Shown here piece by piece: positions 45,442 through 63,718 of a stretch of 64,000 bases of DNA. The translations under genes and the position numbers were made by a program. Positions within the stretch are counted from its first letter, which is position 1. Each line of letters starts with the position of its first letter. Origin of the DNA: Acidobacteriota bacterium (GTDB lineage: Bacteria; Acidobacteriota; Terriglobia; Terriglobales; Acidobacteriaceae); the NCBI GenBank assembly GCA_021780075.1, contig JAJXZL010000005.1, positions 186,001-250,000 on the forward strand. The letters run 5' to 3'. The notes below the pieces were generated by a model that was not told where the DNA came from, searched no databases, and saw nothing but the letters and a program-made list of their open reading frames with translations.

Positions 45442-48123
45442 TCACTGTTCGTTTGAGTTGGCGGGCATGGAACGGATGTAGGCGATCAGCGCTTTCATGT
45501 CCGAAGGGTTGAGGTTGGTAAGGGGCATGCCGCCTTGCTGCATGCGAATGGTGTGGTGGCGCAGCAGTTGATCGAGCGTTCCGGCGGGCAGGAGCGACGC
45601 CGTTCCAGCCAGCGGCGGGGCGGCCACTGTACCCGTGAGTCCGCCAACTCCGTGGCAGGTGCCGCAGGACATGCGTTGGAATATCTTCTGACCACGCAGA
45701 GCCAACGGGCTGAGCGGCGGGGGCGCAACCATGGCACGAGCCGGTGCTGCGGGAGTCGCTGCGACTGCAGGCTGCGTGCGAGTCATGCGCGCGGGCAGAG
45801 TGGGGGCAGAAGCCGCAGGTGCGGATTGCAAGCTATTTAGATAACTGACAAGCTGCTGCAGTTGATGCCCGTTGAGCATAACGGTGGGCATACCGCCATT
45901 GCGCATCTGGCTGGTGGGGTGATGCAGCAGATAAGGCAGCTTGTCGCCAGGGAACTTCTCTCTGATTCCGACGAGCGATGGAGCAAAGCGCGTGCCCTGC
46001 GCCATCTGTCCATGGCACGCCGCGCAACCCTGAGTGAGAAAAAGAGTGCGGCCGGGGTTGGGTGCTGTCGCCGACGAGGCAACAGGCTGAGGCGCCCGTG
46101 TCGTCGGCGCGAAAGTCGGTGCGGAAGCCGGAGCAGCCGCTGGCGTCGCGCTGCTCTCAGCCGGAGTTGCGGGAGCGCTGGTCGGCGCAGGCATCTCGGG
46201 ATAGGGCACGCTGCCGCCGGTCTCATGGACAACAGGAGACGTCTGCGCTTGTTGCGAGGGAGCGTGCAGGCTACGCAAGAAGGCGATCAGATTCGTGCGC
46301 TCCGCTGACGTTCCTGTGAAGGGCGGCATGCCCCCGGTCTTCATTTTCGCGGTCGGGTTTGCAAGGACCTGGTCCAGTTGCGCGTCGGAGAGGTGTGCGA
46401 TGAGCGGAGCGATCGCCGGAGCAATGCGGCCCTTGCCGGATGGACCATGGCAGCCCGAGCACGCGTGGCTCTGGAAAAGCAGCGCGCCATCCGCTATCGC
46501 AGAGGAGTTCTGCACGGGTGCGCCGGGCTGCGGCTGCATCGGCGCCGCAGTGTTGACAGTTGCCCCCGGCGCAGTCTCCGTGCTTGCCGTTGTGGGCGCC
46601 AGTGTTTGGCCCGATGAGGGCTGGACATTGGCTTCGCTCGTTCCGATCACCGCCAGGTAGGCCAGTAGCGCCTTCATATTGTCAGGCGAAATGTCCACCG
46701 CAGGCATGTGACCGGCGCGCATAGCGGGGGTCGGATTATGCAGCATTGCGATCAGCTGCGGCTCAGGAAACTGCGTTGTGATGCCCTTCAAACTGGGCGC
46801 GATGGTAGTGCCCAGGCCAACGTCGCCGTGGCAGCCCGAGCAGCCGTGAGCCTGGAAGATACCCCGGCCCTGGGCAACGATCGGATTGACGGGGCCGCTG
46901 GGAAGGGCAAGCGGACCGGTTCCTCCTGGCGATTCCTGATAAGGCTCGAAGGGCGCCTTGGTATAGGCAGCCTCCTGGCGGGCCTGCAAGGCGAGCTGTG
47001 CTGCGATGGTGGGATCGTGCTGGTCGTCGTAGTGGCTGCGGAAGCCCAGGAAGATGGTGCCGCAGAGAACAATGGCAACCGCCAGCACCGGAATGGGACG
47101 CCGCCAGGGACGGCGCTCCAGCTTGCGGTCGAGGAAGGGCAGCAGGAACAGGAGCAGCGCGAGCACCCCGGGTGTGACCACGACGGCGAAAACGACCTTG
47201 GGGCCTTCCCAGAACTTGAGCCATTCGAAAAAGGGCAGGTAGTACCACTCCGGCCGGGGCAGGAAGTGGGTATCGGCGGGATTGGCGATAGGTCCGAGGC
47301 CAACCGGGTGGAAATAGGCCAGGAAGACAAGGCCCACCATTAGCAGCCACGCGAATCCCAGGTCCATAAGAACCTGGCGCGGATAGAAACTCTCCGGCGG
47401 GAGCTTCGGCTCGATGGGATCTTCGAGGATCGGTCCTGCGGCACCCGCCTTTCGGAACAGGAAGATGTGGATGGCGATGAACGCGAAGATCAGCCCAGGA
47501 ATGATAAAGACGTGCGCGACGTAAAAGCGGGAGAGGGTGAGGGTGCCGATCGTGTCGCCGCCGCGCAGCAGACGCGTGAGCCATTCACCGATGATCGGCA
47601 CCTGGCCTACGATGTTGGTGCCTACCGCAGTGGCGAAGTAGGCCTTCTGATCCCAAGGCAGCAGGTAGCCGGTGAAGCCCATGCCCAGCACCAGCAGCGA
47701 GAGCGCGGCTCCGCAGATCCAGAGCAGCTCGCGCCGGCCCTTGAACGAGCCATAGAGAAAAGTCTGCAAGAAGTGCAGGACCAGCACGATGATCATCGCG
47801 CTCGCCCCGTAGTAGTGAAGGCTGCGCAGAAATGCGCCCGCGGCAACCATCTTGGTGATGTAGGCGACGCTGGTGTGGGCTGTCTCGGCCGAAGGCACGT
47901 AGTAGATCATCAGGCAGAGGCCGGTGATGATCTGCGAGATGAAGATGAACAGCAAGCCGGAGCCGAAAACGTAGGCAAAGCGCGCGCCGCCGGGAATAGG
48001 CTCGTCGAGCGATTCCTTCATCAGCCTGTCTACGCCGGCGCGCCGGTCCATCCAGTGAAAGATCCGCTTGCCAAGGCTCCCGCCGGCTGAGTCTGCGGAG
48101 ATATTCTTTTGCTCTGATTGCAC
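45442..48123 (-). CDS. cytochrome b fused to four cytochrome c domains
   Basis: 893 residues. Residues 1-370 are a complete cytochrome b of the bc/b6f type, with about eight helices, paired histidines on helices 2 and 4 (LRSLHYYGAS with VLVLHFLQT, and FYVAHVF with AIHIFLF) and the quinol-oxidation motif RPEWYY (P291-Y294). Then follow four class I cytochrome c domains with haem motifs CSGCH (428-432), CSGCH (555-559), CAACH (700-704) and CGTCH (820-824), each followed by a GHMP or GGMP methionine ligand motif and joined by long Ala/Pro/Thr linkers. Together with the Rieske protein encoded 19 bases upstream this makes a bc complex whose cytochrome c1 role is taken by a tetrahaem chain. It belongs to the porin-cytochrome operon. 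Confidence 0.92.
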   Translation of the reverse strand: MQSEQKNISADSAGGSLGKRIFHWMDRRAGVDRLMKESLDEPIPGGARFAYVFGSGLLFIFISQIITGLCLMIYYVPSAETAHTSVAYITKMVAAGAFLRSLHYYGASAMIIVLVLHFLQTFLYGSFKGRRELLWICGAALSLLVLGMGFTGYLLPWDQKAYFATAVGTNIVGQVPIIGEWLTRLLRGGDTIGTLTLSRFYVAHVFIIPGLIFAFIAIHIFLFRKAGAAGPILEDPIEPKLPPESFYPRQVLMDLGFAWLLMVGLVFLAYFHPVGLGPIANPADTHFLPRPEWYYLPFFEWLKFWEGPKVVFAVVVTPGVLALLLFLLPFLDRKLERRPWRRPIPVLAVAIVLCGTIFLGFRSHYDDQHDPTIAAQLALQARQEAAYTKAPFEPYQESPGGTGPLALPSGPVNPIVAQGRGIFQAHGCSGCHGDVGLGTTIAPSLKGITTQFPEPQLIAMLHNPTPAMRAGHMPAVDISPDNMKALLAYLAVIGTSEANVQPSSGQTLAPTTASTETAPGATVNTAAPMQPQPGAPVQNSSAIADGALLFQSHACSGCHGPSGKGRIAPAIAPLIAHLSDAQLDQVLANPTAKMKTGGMPPFTGTSAERTNLIAFLRSLHAPSQQAQTSPVVHETGGSVPYPEMPAPTSAPATPAESSATPAAAPASAPTFAPTTRAPQPVASSATAPNPGRTLFLTQGCAACHGQMAQGTRFAPSLVGIREKFPGDKLPYLLHHPTSQMRNGGMPTVMLNGHQLQQLVSYLNSLQSAPAASAPTLPARMTRTQPAVAATPAAPARAMVAPPPLSPLALRGQKIFQRMSCGTCHGVGGLTGTVAAPPLAGTASLLPAGTLDQLLRHHTIRMQQGGMPLTNLNPSDMKALIAYIRSMPANSNEQ

Positions 48124-48142
48124 AGCATCCCCCTCGACGCGG

Positions 48143-48700
48143 TTAGCTCAACTGTTCCTTGTTCGGCACATTCGAGCGGAAGAACTCAAAGTGGACCTGC
48201 AGCTTGCCGTCCTGCACGCGTGTGGGCAGCGTGTCCATGCCGCGCGGCGGTGGGCCGGAGATATGCTTGCCGTTGGGTGCAAAGCGCCCGCCGTGGCAGG
48301 GGCAAACAAACTCGTTTTGCGCTGGTTGCCAAGAGACGCTGCATCCCAGGTGCGGGCAGATTGCGGAAAGCACTTCGAACTGATCGTCGGCAAGGCGGTT
48401 CACGTAGACGGACTGGGCGGAGACGACCTCGCGCCAGCCGTCGCGCTGCGCAAAGGTGATGGTCTTGCGAACCGGGGAAGTGGAACCGGAAAAGTCTTCT
48501 ATCTTACCTACGTCGGACCAGTCATTTCCTGAGATCTTTGCATAGAGAGGGTAAAGAATGTAGCGGAGTACCGGCACGGCCAGAAAGGCGCCCATTCCTG
48601 CCGTGCCGATCGCCAACAGTGCGCCGAAAAAAGAGCGCCGGTTGATGACAATGACTTCTTTATTACCCTCAAGACTGATGGGGTAACTTTCTTGTTCCAC
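48143..48700 (-). CDS. Rieske iron-sulfur subunit of a bc-type complex
   Basis: 185 residues: N-terminal RRSFFGALLAIGTAGMGAFL (signal-anchor, with an RR pair), a linker, and the Rieske fold with cluster ligands in ICPHLGCSV and FVCPCHGGRF (two Cys, two His) plus the GPPPRGMDTL proline loop. It passes electrons from quinol at the PEWY site of the next gene product to cytochrome c. Operon order: porin-cytochrome, Rieske, cytochrome b-c4, with gaps of 9 and 19 bases. Confidence 0.94.
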   Translation of the reverse strand: MEQESYPISLEGNKEVIVINRRSFFGALLAIGTAGMGAFLAVPVLRYILYPLYAKISGNDWSDVGKIEDFSGSTSPVRKTITFAQRDGWREVVSAQSVYVNRLADDQFEVLSAICPHLGCSVSWQPAQNEFVCPCHGGRFAPNGKHISGPPPRGMDTLPTRVQDGKLQVHFEFFRSNVPNKEQLS

Positions 48701-48709
48701 AGTCCCCTC

Positions 48710-50029
48710 CTAGAAGATGAGCCACAGGCTCATGTAAGCCGTGTTGTTGTCGGAAGCATTTCGCATCGCGCCGTCATAGTTCGTCGCCGCGCCATTGAAC
48801 TTGAAGTAGCCGGTATAGTTGAAATTGATGTCGATGTTCTGCACGGGCCAGAAGGCGACTTGCCCGATGTAGCCACTTGTATCCGGATTGTCATTGTTGC
48901 TGCCGGTGAGCGGGGCGGGCGCATAGAGCTTAGGATCGCTGTTGCCGGTGGTGGAGAAGAGTGCACCGGTGGCACTGTAGCGGTCTCGCCAGTGATAGGT
49001 GCTGTCGATTTTAAGGGTGTTCAGGTGGTGATCCTTGAACGCCGCCCCGCCCGCCAGGTAAGTGGCTGCCAAATTGGATTTCTCGTGCATCCAGGCACCA
49101 TGCACATCGAGTAAGTTCGGGCCAAAAGGCCGCTCATACTGGAAGTCGAAAGAGGGATCGACATAGCGGTCTTCCGGCCCTGAGATTGCATTGGGAAAGC
49201 TGTTGAGATAGATGCCGTAGGTGCCAACCTCGAGATAGTTGGCGCCCCAGCTCTGCTGCCATGCAACCCGCCAGTAAGGTGCTACACCGCTGATATTGTA
49301 GGATTGCCCCACGCCGGTGGTGGGTGACGGCGTTCCGCCATGCGCCGAACGATACAGAGAAACGTCTCCATATAAATGATTATTCCAAAGTGCGTAGCCA
49401 CCCACACCCGCCACATCCTGCGCGAGGACTCCGTCAATGACCGTCGAGGCCAGTGGGCTTACGCCAGAGTCTGTCTGGATCCAGGGGAAGCCCTCAGCGG
49501 GCGTGCTGTTCCACACGTCTTCTAGAGTCGGGGAATTGTCAATGTTGATCCCGTATTCGAAGTCCTTGCCGCGAAGTTTGGTTTGATTGGCGTAGCGCAG
49601 GTCAACCATATCCATCCCGAAGTGGTCGTCGGAGTGGGTATAAGTGAGTTGAGCCAGACCGCCGAAGTGAGACGCGAATCCGCCAGCCAAATAGAAGCTC
49701 AACATCTGGGGGAGGCCCACCGAGTTGTTCTGGGTCGCTGGCTGCTTGGATTGATTTGCGGTGTTTGACAATAGGAGCATGACGGAAACGGGGATGTACT
49801 TCGAGAGGAGCAGATCCTTGGCATTGCCCACCTTTTCCTTCTTGGTCATGTCGGTGAGCACATAACCGCGCAACTTGAAGTTGCGCCCGAAGGCGGTTAA
49901 CTCAGGCGGGTTGCTATGACATACGTTGCAGGAGAGCCCGGTCTGACGGGCAAAACTTGGCACAGCATTGGCATAGCGGACACTCAGAACGAAACAGGAC
50001 AAGACGGAGATTCGCAGGAGCTTTTGCAT
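48710..50029 (-). CDS. Cyc2-like outer-membrane porin-cytochrome
   Basis: 439 residues from ATG 50029 (AGAGGGTGAG upstream). A signal peptide (about 1-22) is followed by AVPSFARQTGLSCNVCH, with one haem at C34/C37/H38, then PPELTAFGRNFKLRGY; this N-terminal block is the signature of Cyc2-type monohaem porin-cytochromes, which oxidise iron(II) at the cell surface. The remaining 380 residues form a barrel ending YMSLWLIF. It is the first gene before a Rieske/cytochrome b-c4 pair, so electrons could flow from outside the cell to a bc complex or the reverse. Whether iron is the substrate is not shown by sequence. Confidence 0.82.
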   Translation of the reverse strand: MQKLLRISVLSCFVLSVRYANAVPSFARQTGLSCNVCHSNPPELTAFGRNFKLRGYVLTDMTKKEKVGNAKDLLLSKYIPVSVMLLLSNTANQSKQPATQNNSVGLPQMLSFYLAGGFASHFGGLAQLTYTHSDDHFGMDMVDLRYANQTKLRGKDFEYGINIDNSPTLEDVWNSTPAEGFPWIQTDSGVSPLASTVIDGVLAQDVAGVGGYALWNNHLYGDVSLYRSAHGGTPSPTTGVGQSYNISGVAPYWRVAWQQSWGANYLEVGTYGIYLNSFPNAISGPEDRYVDPSFDFQYERPFGPNLLDVHGAWMHEKSNLAATYLAGGAAFKDHHLNTLKIDSTYHWRDRYSATGALFSTTGNSDPKLYAPAPLTGSNNDNPDTSGYIGQVAFWPVQNIDINFNYTGYFKFNGAATNYDGAMRNASDNNTAYMSLWLIF

Positions 50030-50134
50030 GCTCACCCTCTTCTGCCGATCAGTCCGCCGATGCGGCCGGATCGCGGAATGTACTTTTGTGATGCCGTGGA
50101 AGATTGAACAACACTCACCACGGTTCATTGGAAT

Positions 50135-50150
50135 TGCATGTGGCGTGCCA
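50135..50150 (-). promoter_or_regulatory. sigma-54-type promoter TGGCACGCCACATGCA
   Basis: Minus strand; one mismatch from TGGCACG-N4-TTGCA, GG and GC 10 bases apart. Transcription would start near 50124, about 95 bases before the Cyc2-like gene. Confidence 0.7.
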
Positions 50151-50233
50151 AAGGATCACTGGATGTACAGATTTGTAAGATCGCGAAGATCAACACCATA
50201 GGGGCCTTTCAGAGCAAAGTGTCGGAATTTATT

Positions 50234-50270
50234 CGCCCTATATCAGGCACCTTCTGCCGCATTTCGGGCA
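50234..50270. promoter_or_regulatory. paired enhancer sites before the Cyc2-like operon
   Basis: CGCCCTATATCAGGCA (50234-50249) and TGCCGCATTTCGGGCA (50255-50270), 21 bp apart, 84-120 bp upstream of the sigma-54-type promoter. Confidence 0.65.
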
Positions 50271-50619
50271 GGTTCCCGCAATGGCTCCACGGGTTCGGCA
50301 CGTATAAATCACGCCCTTTCTGCATGCGTGCGACTGCTTGGAGGTTCCAGGAGACCGTCACACAGCTTGTTCACGGAAAATGCCAACAAGGGCACGCGCG
50401 AATTGAATGCACGCTGGGTCAAATTGCGCACTGCTAGAGTTTGTACTTCGCAACACACCTGGAGTCTTACGGCATCCGTGAGGGGCTGACAGGCGGGAGA
50501 TTCATGTCCCTTCTCAATCGCCCGATGCGGGATCACGCATGAGAGCTAAAGCTCGTGCGCACCCAGGTGGCTGCACCACGTTTCTGCCCCTTGGCAATCC
50601 TTCCTTACCGCGCAAAGAC
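50271..50619. other. 349-base region without a supported gene
   Basis: Between the enhancer sites of the Cyc2-like operon and the 3' end of the next minus-strand gene. No domain-bearing frame, RNA or repeat was recognised. Confidence 0.4.
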
Positions 50620-51518: not shown

Positions 51519-51534
51519 AGCAAGAGGCGTGCCA
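51519..51534 (-). promoter_or_regulatory. perfect sigma-54-type promoter TGGCACGCCTCTTGCT
   Basis: Complete match to TGGCACG-N4-TTGCT on the minus strand, leading into the small membrane protein gene. Confidence 0.8.
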
Positions 51535-52175: not shown

Positions 52176-53579
52176 TTATTCACTTTCGTCGTTAACATGC
52201 GGTATTGAGGACGCAGGCGGCGCCAGAGAAAACTTTTCCATCCTGTAAATAAGAGTCTTTCGACTGATATTCAGGTATCGCGCCGCCTTGGTCTGGTTCC
52301 ATTGGCATCTCTCAAGCGCCTGCAACAGGATATCCTTCTCCACTTGCTCGAGATCAATCCCTTCATCAGGCAATTTCAGGCCTATCGAGGACACCCGGGA
52401 CGTCGCATGGCGGATCTGGGCCGGCAAGTCTTCGGTGCGAATGACCTCTGAAGTGCCCAGCACGACGGCATGTTCCACGACGTTCTCCAGTTCCCTCACA
52501 TTCCCAGGCCAGTCGTAACGTGTAAGAAACTCCAGTGCCTCCTCATTGATGGATGGCATCGGCAGTTTATAGCGCGTACAGTGCTTCTTCAGAAAATGAG
52601 AGAACAGCAGCGGGATATCCTCGCGCCGCTCCCGCAGCGGAGGCAGTTCCACGGTCACAACGCTCAACCGATAAAACAAGTCCTCGCGAAAGTGGCCGTC
52701 TTCAATGAGCATACGGAGATCGCGATTGGTCGCGGCGATGATGCGCACGTTCACTGGGATGGGTTTTGGAAAGCCGATCTTATCGATCTCGCGCTCCTGA
52801 ATTACGCGCAGCAAACGCACCTGAAGATTGATGGGAAGCTCGCCGATCTCATCGAGGAAAACCGAGCCCTCGTTGGCGGACTCAAATTTACCGACGCGGT
52901 CAGCGATGGCTCCCGTGAACGATCCTTTGCGGTGGCCGAACAACTCCGATTCGATCAGGTTCTCCGGAATAGCTCCGCAGTTCACAGTGATGAACGGCTT
53001 CGCCGCCCTGAGGCTGTTCTGATGAATCGCCTTCGCAATTAGTTCCTTGCCCGTCCCGGATTCGCCCGTCACGAGAACGGTCGAGTCGCGTCGCGCAACC
53101 TGCGCCGCTAAGCTGAATACATCCCGCATGCGTTTCGAGCCTGCCACGAGGTTTTCGAACCGGAATGCTGTATCGCTGAAATCGCGCAGATAGCGGTTTT
53201 CATTCAGCAGTTGCTGGTGTTCTAGAGCGCGCTGAACGTTTACCTTCAGCTCTTCGGGGTTCAACGGCTTGAGCACATAGTCAGCCGCCCCCAGTTTCAT
53301 GGCTTCAACAGCATCGCCGACAGCGCCGAACGCCGTGATCAGGATGACGGGCGTGTCAGGATTGAGGGCCTTGATGCGGCCGAGAAGATCGAGGCCGCTG
53401 AGGCCGGGCATCCGAATGTCGGAAATCACCAGCGCGGGCGACGTCTCTGTGAACGTCTGCAGCGCCGTGTTGCCGTCGGATGCAATTACAACGGAATATC
53501 CTTCTTCCTTGAGCCAGAAGTCGATTAGCCGCCTTTGGCTGATGTCGTCGTCGACCACGAGAATGCGTTCGTTCGCCAT
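52176..53579 (-). CDS. NtrC-family sigma-54-dependent response regulator
   Basis: 467 residues: receiver domain (about 1-120; ILVVDDDISQ, phospho-acceptor Asp in LVISDIRMPG, Lys in YVLKPLNPEE), AAA+ domain (about 145-385) with Walker A GESGTGKE, the sigma-54 contact loop GSFTGA (usually GAFTGA), SVFLDEIGELP and the arginine-finger region, and a Fis-type helix-turn-helix at about 425-460 (QTKAARYLNISRKTLIYRM). It activates RNA polymerase with sigma-54 from enhancer sites. The kinase gene is directly upstream, stop and start adjacent. The TGCC-N8-GGCA palindromes near sigma-54-type promoters in this window are its probable targets, including its own operon. Confidence 0.95.
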   Translation of the reverse strand: MANERILVVDDDISQRRLIDFWLKEEGYSVVIASDGNTALQTFTETSPALVISDIRMPGLSGLDLLGRIKALNPDTPVILITAFGAVGDAVEAMKLGAADYVLKPLNPEELKVNVQRALEHQQLLNENRYLRDFSDTAFRFENLVAGSKRMRDVFSLAAQVARRDSTVLVTGESGTGKELIAKAIHQNSLRAAKPFITVNCGAIPENLIESELFGHRKGSFTGAIADRVGKFESANEGSVFLDEIGELPINLQVRLLRVIQEREIDKIGFPKPIPVNVRIIAATNRDLRMLIEDGHFREDLFYRLSVVTVELPPLRERREDIPLLFSHFLKKHCTRYKLPMPSINEEALEFLTRYDWPGNVRELENVVEHAVVLGTSEVIRTEDLPAQIRHATSRVSSIGLKLPDEGIDLEQVEKDILLQALERCQWNQTKAARYLNISRKTLIYRMEKFSLAPPASSIPHVNDESE

Positions 53580-54803
53580 CTAGTTTCCTTTGGGACCTGC
53601 TTCGATGCCAGAAACGGTGATGGGCAGCGTCACCACAAACGTCATGCCACGTTCAGGGTTCTTCCGCGCGGTAATGTGCCCACCATGCTGGCTGACAATC
53701 TGATATGCAATTGAAAGGCCAAGTCCAGTCCCATTGCTCCGTGTAGTGAAGAACGGATCGAAGACGCGTTCCAGGTCCTCTGTTGGGATCCCCCCGCCTT
53801 CATCCTCGACTTCGATCCGAATAGACTCGCCGTCGCGAACAGCGCGTAATTTGATCTGGCCGCCCATCGGCATCGCCTGCGTGGCGTTGATGGTGAGATT
53901 GAGGAGAACTTGCCGGATCTGTTCCGGATCCACCGAAATCAAAGGCAAGGCTGCAGGAGCCTCGACGACAATCTCAACTTGTGTCATCCTCGCGGTCTCT
54001 GACGCCAGCATTGCCACCGATTGAAGCAGAAGGCCTACGTCCGACGCCACGACCCGCGGGAGTTCGGGTCGCGCGAACTCTAGAAAGTGAGTGACTAAGC
54101 CTTTCAGACGTGCGACTTCGCGCGAGGCCATTCCTGTGAATTCTTGCCGCGTCTCTTCCGCCAGATCGCGGCGGCCGAGTATTTGAACTGCTCCTTCGAT
54201 CGAACCGAGTGGGTTACGGACCTCATGGGCTAGCCCTGCGGAAAGTTCGCCCAGAGCGGAAAGTCGGTCCGCGCGGCGGAGTTGTTCGAAAGACCGCTGA
54301 AGCTGGGTATATACCTCACCGAGTTTCGTGGCTGTCTCTTCCACTTTGCGGCGCTGTGCCCGTTCGTGATCGGCAAGAATGCCGGTTAGAACTGCGATCA
54401 CGAAGAACATCCCGATCTCGATGTATTGGGCGGCTCTGTACTCAGGGTCGAATTTCCACGCCATCATGATATGCGGTATGTAAGAGGCACCTGCCAGAGT
54501 CGCAGCACTTAACCCTCCCTTCCAGCCGAACCAGAGGGCGGCGAGGAGAATGGGGATGTAATACGCCCGTTGCAAAAGCGGGTGGGCCCAGACATCTGTC
54601 GTCGGCGTGTTGTAATGCAGCAGCGCAACTACAGCTATCGTTGCCGCCAAAGCAGCCGCCCGTTGCCAGTCCCGTCTGGAAATCTTCACAAGCGGGATTG
54701 TAGCAGTGGCGGTTGCTGCTATAGGCGTGCTAAGGGGCCTCCCAGCAACGGCTTGGCGGCTTGGGTGAAGCGGACACTGGTCGAGAGCACTGCATGACTG
54801 CAT
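53580..54803 (-). CDS. NtrB-like membrane histidine kinase paired with the NtrC-type regulator
   Basis: 407 residues: a membrane sensor of about four helices (residues about 45-150; LLHYNTPTTDVWAHPLLQ and an AAQYIEIGMFFVIAV segment), a coiled linker (VEETATKLGEVYTQLQ), HisKA with GLAHEVRNPLGSIEGA (phospho-His in HEVRNP), and an ATPase domain with NATQAM, DEGGGIP and GTGLGLSIAYQI. A close paralogue is at 56519-57784. The ATG at 54803 is only 2 bases from the predicted sigma-54 transcription start, so translation may begin further in, for example at the GTG before KISRRDW, about residue 39. It is co-transcribed with the regulator gene. Confidence 0.9.
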   Translation of the reverse strand: MQSCSALDQCPLHPSRQAVAGRPLSTPIAATATATIPLVKISRRDWQRAAALAATIAVVALLHYNTPTTDVWAHPLLQRAYYIPILLAALWFGWKGGLSAATLAGASYIPHIMMAWKFDPEYRAAQYIEIGMFFVIAVLTGILADHERAQRRKVEETATKLGEVYTQLQRSFEQLRRADRLSALGELSAGLAHEVRNPLGSIEGAVQILGRRDLAEETRQEFTGMASREVARLKGLVTHFLEFARPELPRVVASDVGLLLQSVAMLASETARMTQVEIVVEAPAALPLISVDPEQIRQVLLNLTINATQAMPMGGQIKLRAVRDGESIRIEVEDEGGGIPTEDLERVFDPFFTTRSNGTGLGLSIAYQIVSQHGGHITARKNPERGMTFVVTLPITVSGIEAGPKGN

Positions 54804-62985: not shown

Positions 62986-63001
62986 TGGCACGGGATTTGC
63001 A
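62986..63001 (+). promoter_or_regulatory. perfect sigma-54-type promoter TGGCACGGGATTTGCA
   Basis: Exact TGGCACG-N4-TTGCA. Transcription near 63013; leader of about 130 bases before the GTG start at 63146. Confidence 0.8.
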
Positions 63002-63145: not shown

Positions 63146-63718
63146 GTGAAGACTACCATTCGTGAGATCGCGTTGCTCTTGCTATTCGTAGCTGCGCATC
63201 TCGGCTTTGCGCAGCGCGGGGGCATCGGCCAAGTCGGCTATCCCCATGATCGGTTGCGCGATCAGATCTTGGATGCCACGGTCGGCCAACGCGCGGCGAT
63301 CGCCAAGTGCTTGGAGGCAACGGAACAGGTTCGCCAGACCGCTGGCAAGATGCCACGGATTGGGAGTCCTTGGAGTCGCAGCCGTCGGACCTATTCCGCA
63401 CGTGATCTGAGCACCCTTTTGGTTCTTTCCGAACAGTTTGAGGCTGCCGTTGCCAACTTGGCGGCAACTCACCAAGAGTTCCTCGAAAAGTTAACCGATC
63501 GTCAGGCAAGTGAACTCAAGCGGCAACTGAAGAAATTGGACCAACTCGAGGCCAGAATGAATTCCGGCGATTCCCAGCTTAACCGGGATCTGGCTGCTGC
63601 AAAGCCGGGGCCGTTTTCACCGAATATTTCCTGGGATGTCGACTCGATCAAGCGAGCCACCGACAAATGGCGCTCCGAACACAGAAAGATCGCGAAAGAG
63701 CTAGGCATTCCACAATAA
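63146..63718 (+). CDS. exported helical protein, second tandem paralogue
   Basis: 190 residues from GTG 63146 (AGGAGGTAGG upstream). Signal peptide VKTTIREIALLLLFVAAHL, ending in GFAQ, then helices AIAKCLEATEQVRQTAGKM, LVLSEQFEAAVANLAATHQEF, DRQASELKRQLKKLDQL and KRATDKWRSEHRKIAKELG, in the same order as in the 62141 protein; identity is low but the N-terminus, cysteine and C-terminal W-R-S-x-H box coincide. It follows a perfect sigma-54-type promoter. No domain recognised. Confidence 0.65.
   Translation: MKTTIREIALLLLFVAAHLGFAQRGGIGQVGYPHDRLRDQILDATVGQRAAIAKCLEATEQVRQTAGKMPRIGSPWSRSRRTYSARDLSTLLVLSEQFEAAVANLAATHQEFLEKLTDRQASELKRQLKKLDQLEARMNSGDSQLNRDLAAAKPGPFSPNISWDVDSIKRATDKWRSEHRKIAKELGIPQ

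Follow-up and report, generated by a model that had tools for sequence, protein, structure and literature searches.

Introduction

Porin-cytochromes of the Cyc2 family are defined by a signal peptide, a single CXXCH motif, the sequence AXPXFAR[Q/K][T/Y] upstream of it and PXL four residues downstream, a length of at least 365 residues and a barrel of 16 strands that is homologous to OprO/OprP (PMC8406198). In Acidithiobacillus ferrooxidans an outer-membrane Cyc2 is encoded by the rus operon and bc1 complexes by the petI and petII operons, with carriers such as rusticyanin and c4 cytochromes (PMC10654088, PMC8790237, PMC7735108). In Leptospirillum the Cyc2-family porin Cyt572 has acidobacterial homologues in its similarity cluster, and the pathway genes are reported as unclustered (PMC10654088). 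Here a Cyc2-type cytochrome-porin gene is described that stands in one operon-like unit with genes for a Rieske protein and a cytochrome b bearing four c-type haem domains. The genes lie in a 64 000-nucleotide stretch, referred to as the window, of an Acidobacteriota bacterium of the Acidobacteriaceae (GCA_021780075.1, contig JAJXZL010000005.1, positions 186 001 to 250 000); the source genome (G000) comprises 53 contigs with a total of 3.88 Mb and is 99.54% complete.

The window operon differs from the At. ferrooxidans arrangement in combining both elements in one operon, with the four c domains fused to cytochrome b, and from the Cyc2 family as described in having a Rieske/cytochrome b pair as partner, rather than those of the rus operon. 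Anammox bacteria, too, have additional Rieske/cytochrome b complexes that work with multihaem c-type proteins (Kustd1480-1485 and Kuste4569-4574); the available text of that account does not mention a porin (PMC12954380), and the window operon has no NAD(P) subunit. The cytochrome b core is similar to that of ExtP of the Ext selenite/tellurite operon (NCBIfam NF040969), but identity with that system was rejected (194.8 bits against a cut-off of 290). The literature basis also included PMC12442345 and PMC10715153. Among the titles and abstract openings listed from 5.39 million open-access papers, preprints excluded, none describes a cytochrome-porin that shares an operon with Rieske/cytochrome b genes, and such a description may exist.

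Organization of the operon

The cytochrome-porin, Rieske and cytochrome b genes follow one another in tandem on the minus strand, with intergenic gaps of 9 and 19 bp (Table 1). The open reading frame (ORF) coordinates and Pfam matches confirm the adjacency and gap sizes given in a preliminary description of this DNA. The likely start of the porin is the ATG at 50029, which is preceded by AGAGGG; judged from the promoter, transcription should begin at or downstream of the listed start. A Shine-Dalgarno-like TAGGAG ahead of the Rieske gene overlaps the porin stop codon, an arrangement found in 8 of the 10 loci read that belong to type A (defined below), the exceptions being L047 and L089. By gap sizes, gene order and this overlap, the three genes form an operon-like unit. 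No oxidase or cupredoxin gene is present among the operon ORFs.

The cytochrome-porin

The porin carries the sequence AVPSFARQT-GLS-CNVCH-SNP-PEL, with a single CXXCH, and from the revised start its length exceeds the family minimum. An N-terminal export signal was judged by eye, and a hydrophobic helix was modelled at residues 2-19. Two AlphaFold2 runs, of 11 sequences each and with porin lengths of 439 and 418 residues, both predicted 16 long strands with one or two very short ones, at low confidence (mean predicted local distance difference test (pLDDT) 52.0 and 51.7; predicted template modelling (TM) score 0.57 and 0.60). A Foldseek search with the first model placed OmpC/OmpF-type porins on top, at a TM score of about 0.45. 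In a second structural alignment OprO (4rjw) was best (Z 19.7, 293 residues, 3.8 A), and OprP (2o4v, Z 19.1) was tied with other porins; OprO and OprP are the templates named for Cyc2PV-1 (PMC8406198). These predicted matches establish the barrel class of the porin, not its family. Searches of Pfam and NCBIfam gave the porin no match above cut-off, and a search of PDB sequences gave none at E up to 1.

The protein resembles the Cyc2 family in its N-terminal CXXCH, both flanking motifs, a length above 365 residues, the 16 predicted strands and the OprO/OprP-like fold (PMC8406198, PMC7029218). It is classed as Cyc2-type by the published sequence definition. Of clusters 1-3 in the published tree of the family, Cluster 3 is described as the one with the least certain function (PMC8406198). 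The predicted barrel topology suggests a location at the surface, in the outer membrane. CXXCH and ARQT are invariant across all 11 aligned cytochrome-porins.

Named plasmid homologues, at 29-37% identity, are found in Caballeronia (L042), Methylocystis (L043) and At. ferrooxidans (L041, CP084173.1). The Caballeronia porin has a high-potential iron-sulphur protein and a c-type cytochrome alongside, and in At. ferrooxidans a c-type cytochrome follows the porin. Two Acidiphilium plasmids gave the same short match.

The Rieske protein and cytochrome b

The second gene of the unit encodes a Rieske protein with the cluster motif CxHLGC...CPCH (here CPHLGC...CPCHGG) and, by eye, an N-terminal NRRSFF resembling a twin-arginine signal. 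Cytochrome b has b6 and subunit IV regions fused in one chain, with a four-histidine pattern at residues 103-219, from which the putative haem-binding histidines were assigned, and the Qo motif RPEWYY. Its C-terminus is extended by an arm of four monohaem c domains, each with a CXXCH, on proline- and alanine-rich linkers, a feature that the preliminary description did not contain. The operon has no ORF for a separate cytochrome c1 or f subunit. In the window arm every c domain has a Met-Pro motif 42-44 residues past the CXXCH.

The arm recurs within type A: four CXXCH motifs spaced by 109-149 residues were found in each of the eight cytochrome b proteins of this type that were compared (window, L031-L035, L044 and L046). 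The linkers of these eight proteins, three in each, are 19-59 residues long and consist to 71-91% of P, A, S, T, Q and G, with bounds set by hand from 72 residues after one CXXCH to 18 before the next. Length and composition suggest that the arm could span the periplasm.

The window Rieske protein has Gly and Phe at the positions of the Ser and Tyr that in model proteins make the potential higher, while some type-A relatives retain the Ser. In yeast, losses of the Ser and Tyr cost about 130 and 65 mV, respectively, and a Rieske protein that lacks the Tyr still reaches +335 mV (PMC12954380). Because of this last case no firm conclusion on the potential was drawn from these residues.

Recurrence of the pairing

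A search of 60 related genomes with the porin gave 51 matches, which were divided by hand, all rows kept, into 36 long matches (some of them partial, as in G044) and 15 to the N-terminal cytochrome region only. A cytochrome b gene (PF00033) lay within 8 kb of 16 of the 36 long matches, or 15 of 35 without the window, against about 0.24 expected from gene number (PF00033 at 106 places) and genome size; the window is counted among the 16, and G038 and G046 contribute through a distant, type-D cytochrome b. For the N-terminal matches the count was 11 of 15, with about 0.15 expected.

A draw of 297 genomes across the phylum gave porin profile matches in 12 genomes at E up to 1e-15, and the porin is therefore patchily distributed in the phylum. 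Outside G000 and G032 there were 11 matches in 10 genomes, two of which (G330 and G170) belong to the family of the window, and nine of these matches lay within about 5.3 kb of cytochrome b; the exceptions are G286 and G130, in the latter of which no such gene was found. The linkage counts from the 60 genomes and the phylum draw reject chance adjacency of porin and cytochrome b.

The order porin, Rieske, cytochrome b is seen again at nine other distinct loci (L031-L035, L044, L046, L047 and L089, of which L032 is that of G032; L045 duplicates L032 and L048 duplicates L040). Among genomes with kinship given it spans three genera and two families, and the possibility of an incidental operon of one strain was rejected. 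All 10 named loci with an encoded relative come from acidobacterial metagenome-assembled genomes. The pairing of porin and complex is not accidental, and the proposal in the preliminary description that the two are physically tied is supported, the tie recurring at other loci and in other genomes.

Several kinds of locus were distinguished. Gene calls at the compared loci were greedy longest-ORF picks that missed genes; the ARQT-type porins of L038, L047, L056, L058, L060 and L061 were recovered by motif, and the Rieske genes of L033 and L040 were detected by tblastn. Type A, with porin, Rieske and a cytochrome b with four c domains, comprises the window, L031-L035, L044, L046 and L089. L047 has the same order, with a cytochrome b truncated by the contig end after two visible haem motifs, and L050 has this order with one c domain. 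In type B (L036, L037 and L040) a Rieske gene and a cytochrome b with one c domain are followed by one or two ORFs and the porin. In type C (L064, L069, L071, L072, L090 and L092; incomplete in L065, L067, L068 and L070) the porin has as neighbours a Rieske protein, a b6-like cytochrome b and subunit IV, together with an NAD(P)-oxidoreductase-like protein and an octahaem cytochrome; these assignments were made by similarity to L071, whose proteins were domain-scanned. By description, type C matches the anammox complexes in its kinds of subunit (PMC12954380). Type D (L054 and L055) combines the porin with another Rieske/cytochrome b pair.

In a phylogeny of 49 cytochrome-porins, which leaves out L089 and has several long branches flagged elsewhere, the type-A rows except L050 form one clade of nine (99/99) that includes L047, from another family, and every locus in this clade keeps the order porin, Rieske, cytochrome b. 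A family of proteins of ~240-250 residues recurs in 15 of the loci that were clustered (L036, L037, L039, L040, L051, L053, L059 and others); the L036 member carries a CarboxypepD_reg domain, and the 200-residue neighbour in L071 a copper-binding domain as well.

Proposed mechanism and direction of electron flow

The preliminary description had left two directions open, oxidation of an external donor with reverse electron flow, or export of electrons. Export is favoured here. The operon is read, tentatively and at slightly less than an even chance, as a dedicated conduit from menaquinol oxidation to the reduction of an extracellular acceptor such as Fe(III). The Rieske/cytochrome b pair would oxidise menaquinol and hand the electrons to the four c-type haem domains on the long, flexible Pro/Ala-rich linkers of cytochrome b; the arm would relay them through the periplasm to the one haem of the Cyc2-type porin. 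When oxygen is limiting, this porin would reduce a soluble acceptor outside the cell, for which Fe(III) at low pH is the likeliest candidate. The bridging role of the arm, the outward direction, the acceptor, the acid habitat and menaquinol as the quinone are all putative.

Outward flow is favoured because G000 has no RuBisCO match and the operon no oxidase, and because a COX1 gene (C42) is found close to another Rieske/cytochrome b pair of G000. It is favoured also because micro-aerobic Fe(III) reduction is reported for Acidobacterium and Acidicapsa (PMC8790237) and because, in At. ferrooxidans, a proposal makes Cyc2 the Fe(III) reductase, with electrons supplied by way of bc1 (PMC7735108, PMC8790237). 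Several points weigh against the proposed conduit. The verified activity of characterised Cyc2, in three family members, is Fe(II) oxidation (PMC8406198), and the four COX1 genes of G000 would permit respiration of electrons from Fe(II). The linkage rows come from related species and are not independent, and 20 of the 36 long matches have no cytochrome b within 8 kb, some of these being near contig ends. About 350 bp separate the porin gene of L089 from its Rieske gene, the porin models are of low confidence (mean pLDDT 52, and below 50 in the haem domain), and the upstream regions of seven other type-A loci have no sigma-54 site comparable to that of the window (scores 9.5-12.5).

The same verified activity and the same COX1 genes speak for a doubtful but real possibility, that Fe(II) or another external donor is oxidised at the porin and the electrons pass via the arm to a terminal oxidase, with a part driven uphill through the Rieske/cytochrome b pair into the quinone pool, much as the uphill branch of At. 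ferrooxidans uses a bc1 complex (PMC10654088, PMC8790237). This inward route is less supported than export, given an operon with neither oxidase nor cupredoxin gene and a genome with no RuBisCO match, a negative that leaves other CO2-fixation pathways outside the search; without RuBisCO, reverse flow for CO2 fixation by the Calvin cycle is not needed, and Calvin-cycle autotrophy is not supported. Among 13 other genomes tested, drawn from the 21 others with a long porin match, RuBisCO was near full length in one (G025), and G041 had a fragment of 44 positions.

A reversible conduit, reducing Fe(III) without oxygen and oxidising Fe(II) with it, for redox balance and not autotrophy, is quite unlikely. 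Q-cycle complexes normally favour quinol oxidation, which counts against it; conditional use is suggested by the nearby sensor kinase/NtrC pair, and bidirectional working has been proposed for Cyc2 of At. ferrooxidans (PMC8790237, PMC7735108). Still less probable is a protein that conducts no electrons, a solute porin with a structural or sensory haem whose gene travels with those of an unrelated bc complex. Such a protein would agree with a predicted fold among the general and phosphate porins (OmpC/OmpF by Foldseek, OprO/OprP in the second alignment) and with a single haem that makes no multihaem wire through the membrane, but the invariance of CXXCH and ARQT and the recurrent pairing with several different Rieske/cytochrome b complexes argue against it.

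The outward conduit could be carried further, although the extension is somewhat unlikely. Cytochrome b would then hold a trans-periplasmic wire, four monohaem beads on disordered linkers reaching from the inner-membrane Qo site to the outer-membrane porin, in a carrier-free unit from quinone to outside. Acidobacterial porins of this kind have several sorts of Rieske/cytochrome b complex as partners, one of which shares its kinds of subunit with anammox complexes that are proposed to generate NAD(P)H, and by analogy the electron sink of Kustd1480-1485 might be extracellular; according to the available text of PMC12954380, no proposal of a favourable sink exists for that complex.

Promoter and regulation

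A strong sigma-54-type -24/-12 site precedes the operon (Table 1). It scored 14.0 of 15 in a home-made scheme, a value reached by none of 300 mononucleotide shuffles of the 400-bp upstream region. The pattern TGGCACGN4WTGCW, composed after the site was seen, has three exact matches in the window against 0.07 expected. The further matches are at 51519-51534 (-) and 62986-63001 (+), the latter about 145 bp ahead of an ORF at 63146, and a small regulon of an NtrC-type regulator is possible. Conserved sigma-54 control is not supported by the seven type-A relatives; the best relative score, 12.5 in L032, was equalled by 5% of shuffles, and the region of L033 was cut at an approximate start. The preliminary description had proposed a shared sigma-54 promoter with paired enhancers. 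The promoter site stands for the window, but paired enhancers are not established, the best direct repeat being matched by 3 of 60 shuffles.

An NtrC-type regulator and a kinase are encoded 2 kb upstream of the operon, which this system may regulate. In L051, L052 and L059, blastp placed a strong NtrC-type protein no more than six genes away from the porin, and this was so at L060 and L098 as well; such proteins also stand beside the ARKY-type porins of L023, L025, L028 and L079. A count by regular expression, 2 of 57, is an undercount. An NtrC neighbour is a minority feature among porin loci and was not used as support.

Other cytochrome-porins and respiratory genes of the genome

Two more cytochrome-porins are encoded in G000 (Table 1). 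The second, which lies in the window, is overlapped and followed by an ORF with two haem motifs and has a 78% identical copy in L077. The contig of the third ends just beyond its lipoprotein-like cytochrome, so that no complex is visible with it. A type-C b6 protein as query found only the three known cytochrome b genes in G000. L085 (G000:C49) has another cytochrome b (PEWY, 361 residues), with a nine-haem cytochrome after it and, upstream, an ORF that looks CRP-like by eye.

Table 1. Positions of the operon, its motifs and related features (window coordinates unless a contig is given)
Feature	Position	Strand	Basis or remark
Cytochrome-porin	listed ORF 48710-50128; likely 48710..50029	-	439 aa; Cyc2-type motifs
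Porin haem motif CNVCH	49916-49930	-	single CXXCH
Rieske [2Fe-2S] protein	48143..48700	-	185 aa; PF00355 1.4e-11; CPHLGC...CPCHGG
Cytochrome b with C-terminal arm	45442..48123	-	893 aa; PF00033 1.5e-47, PF00032, PF00034 (4 stretches)
Arm haem motif 1, CSGCH, residue 428	46828..46842	-	
Arm haem motif 2, CSGCH, residue 555	46447..46461	-	
Arm haem motif 3, CAACH, residue 700	46012..46026	-	
Arm haem motif 4, CGTCH, residue 820	45652..45666	-	
Sigma-54-type -24/-12 element TGGCACG-N4-ATGCA	50135..50150	-	motif score; sigma-54 gene in genome
19-nt imperfect direct repeat (15/19), possible enhancer pair	50239-50257 and 50305-50323	-	not above chance
NtrC-type sigma-54-dependent response regulator, candidate regulator	52176..53579	-	PF00158, PF00072, PF02954
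Sensor histidine kinase adjoining regulator	53580..54803	-	PF02518, PF00512
Second cytochrome-porin, 433 aa	26099-27400	+	divergent AVPQYARRYG..CYACH kind
Third cytochrome-porin (L063)	G000:C13:108964-110289		groups with type C in tree

Significance

No route for the micro-aerobic Fe(III) reduction of acidobacteria is named in the portions of the cited account that bear on it (PMC8790237). The operon names a partner for the porin, a quinone-linked complex, and gives a handle on electron intake versus export in Acidobacteriota. If the proposed conduit is true, it suggests a simple electron path across two membranes that would work without soluble carriers.

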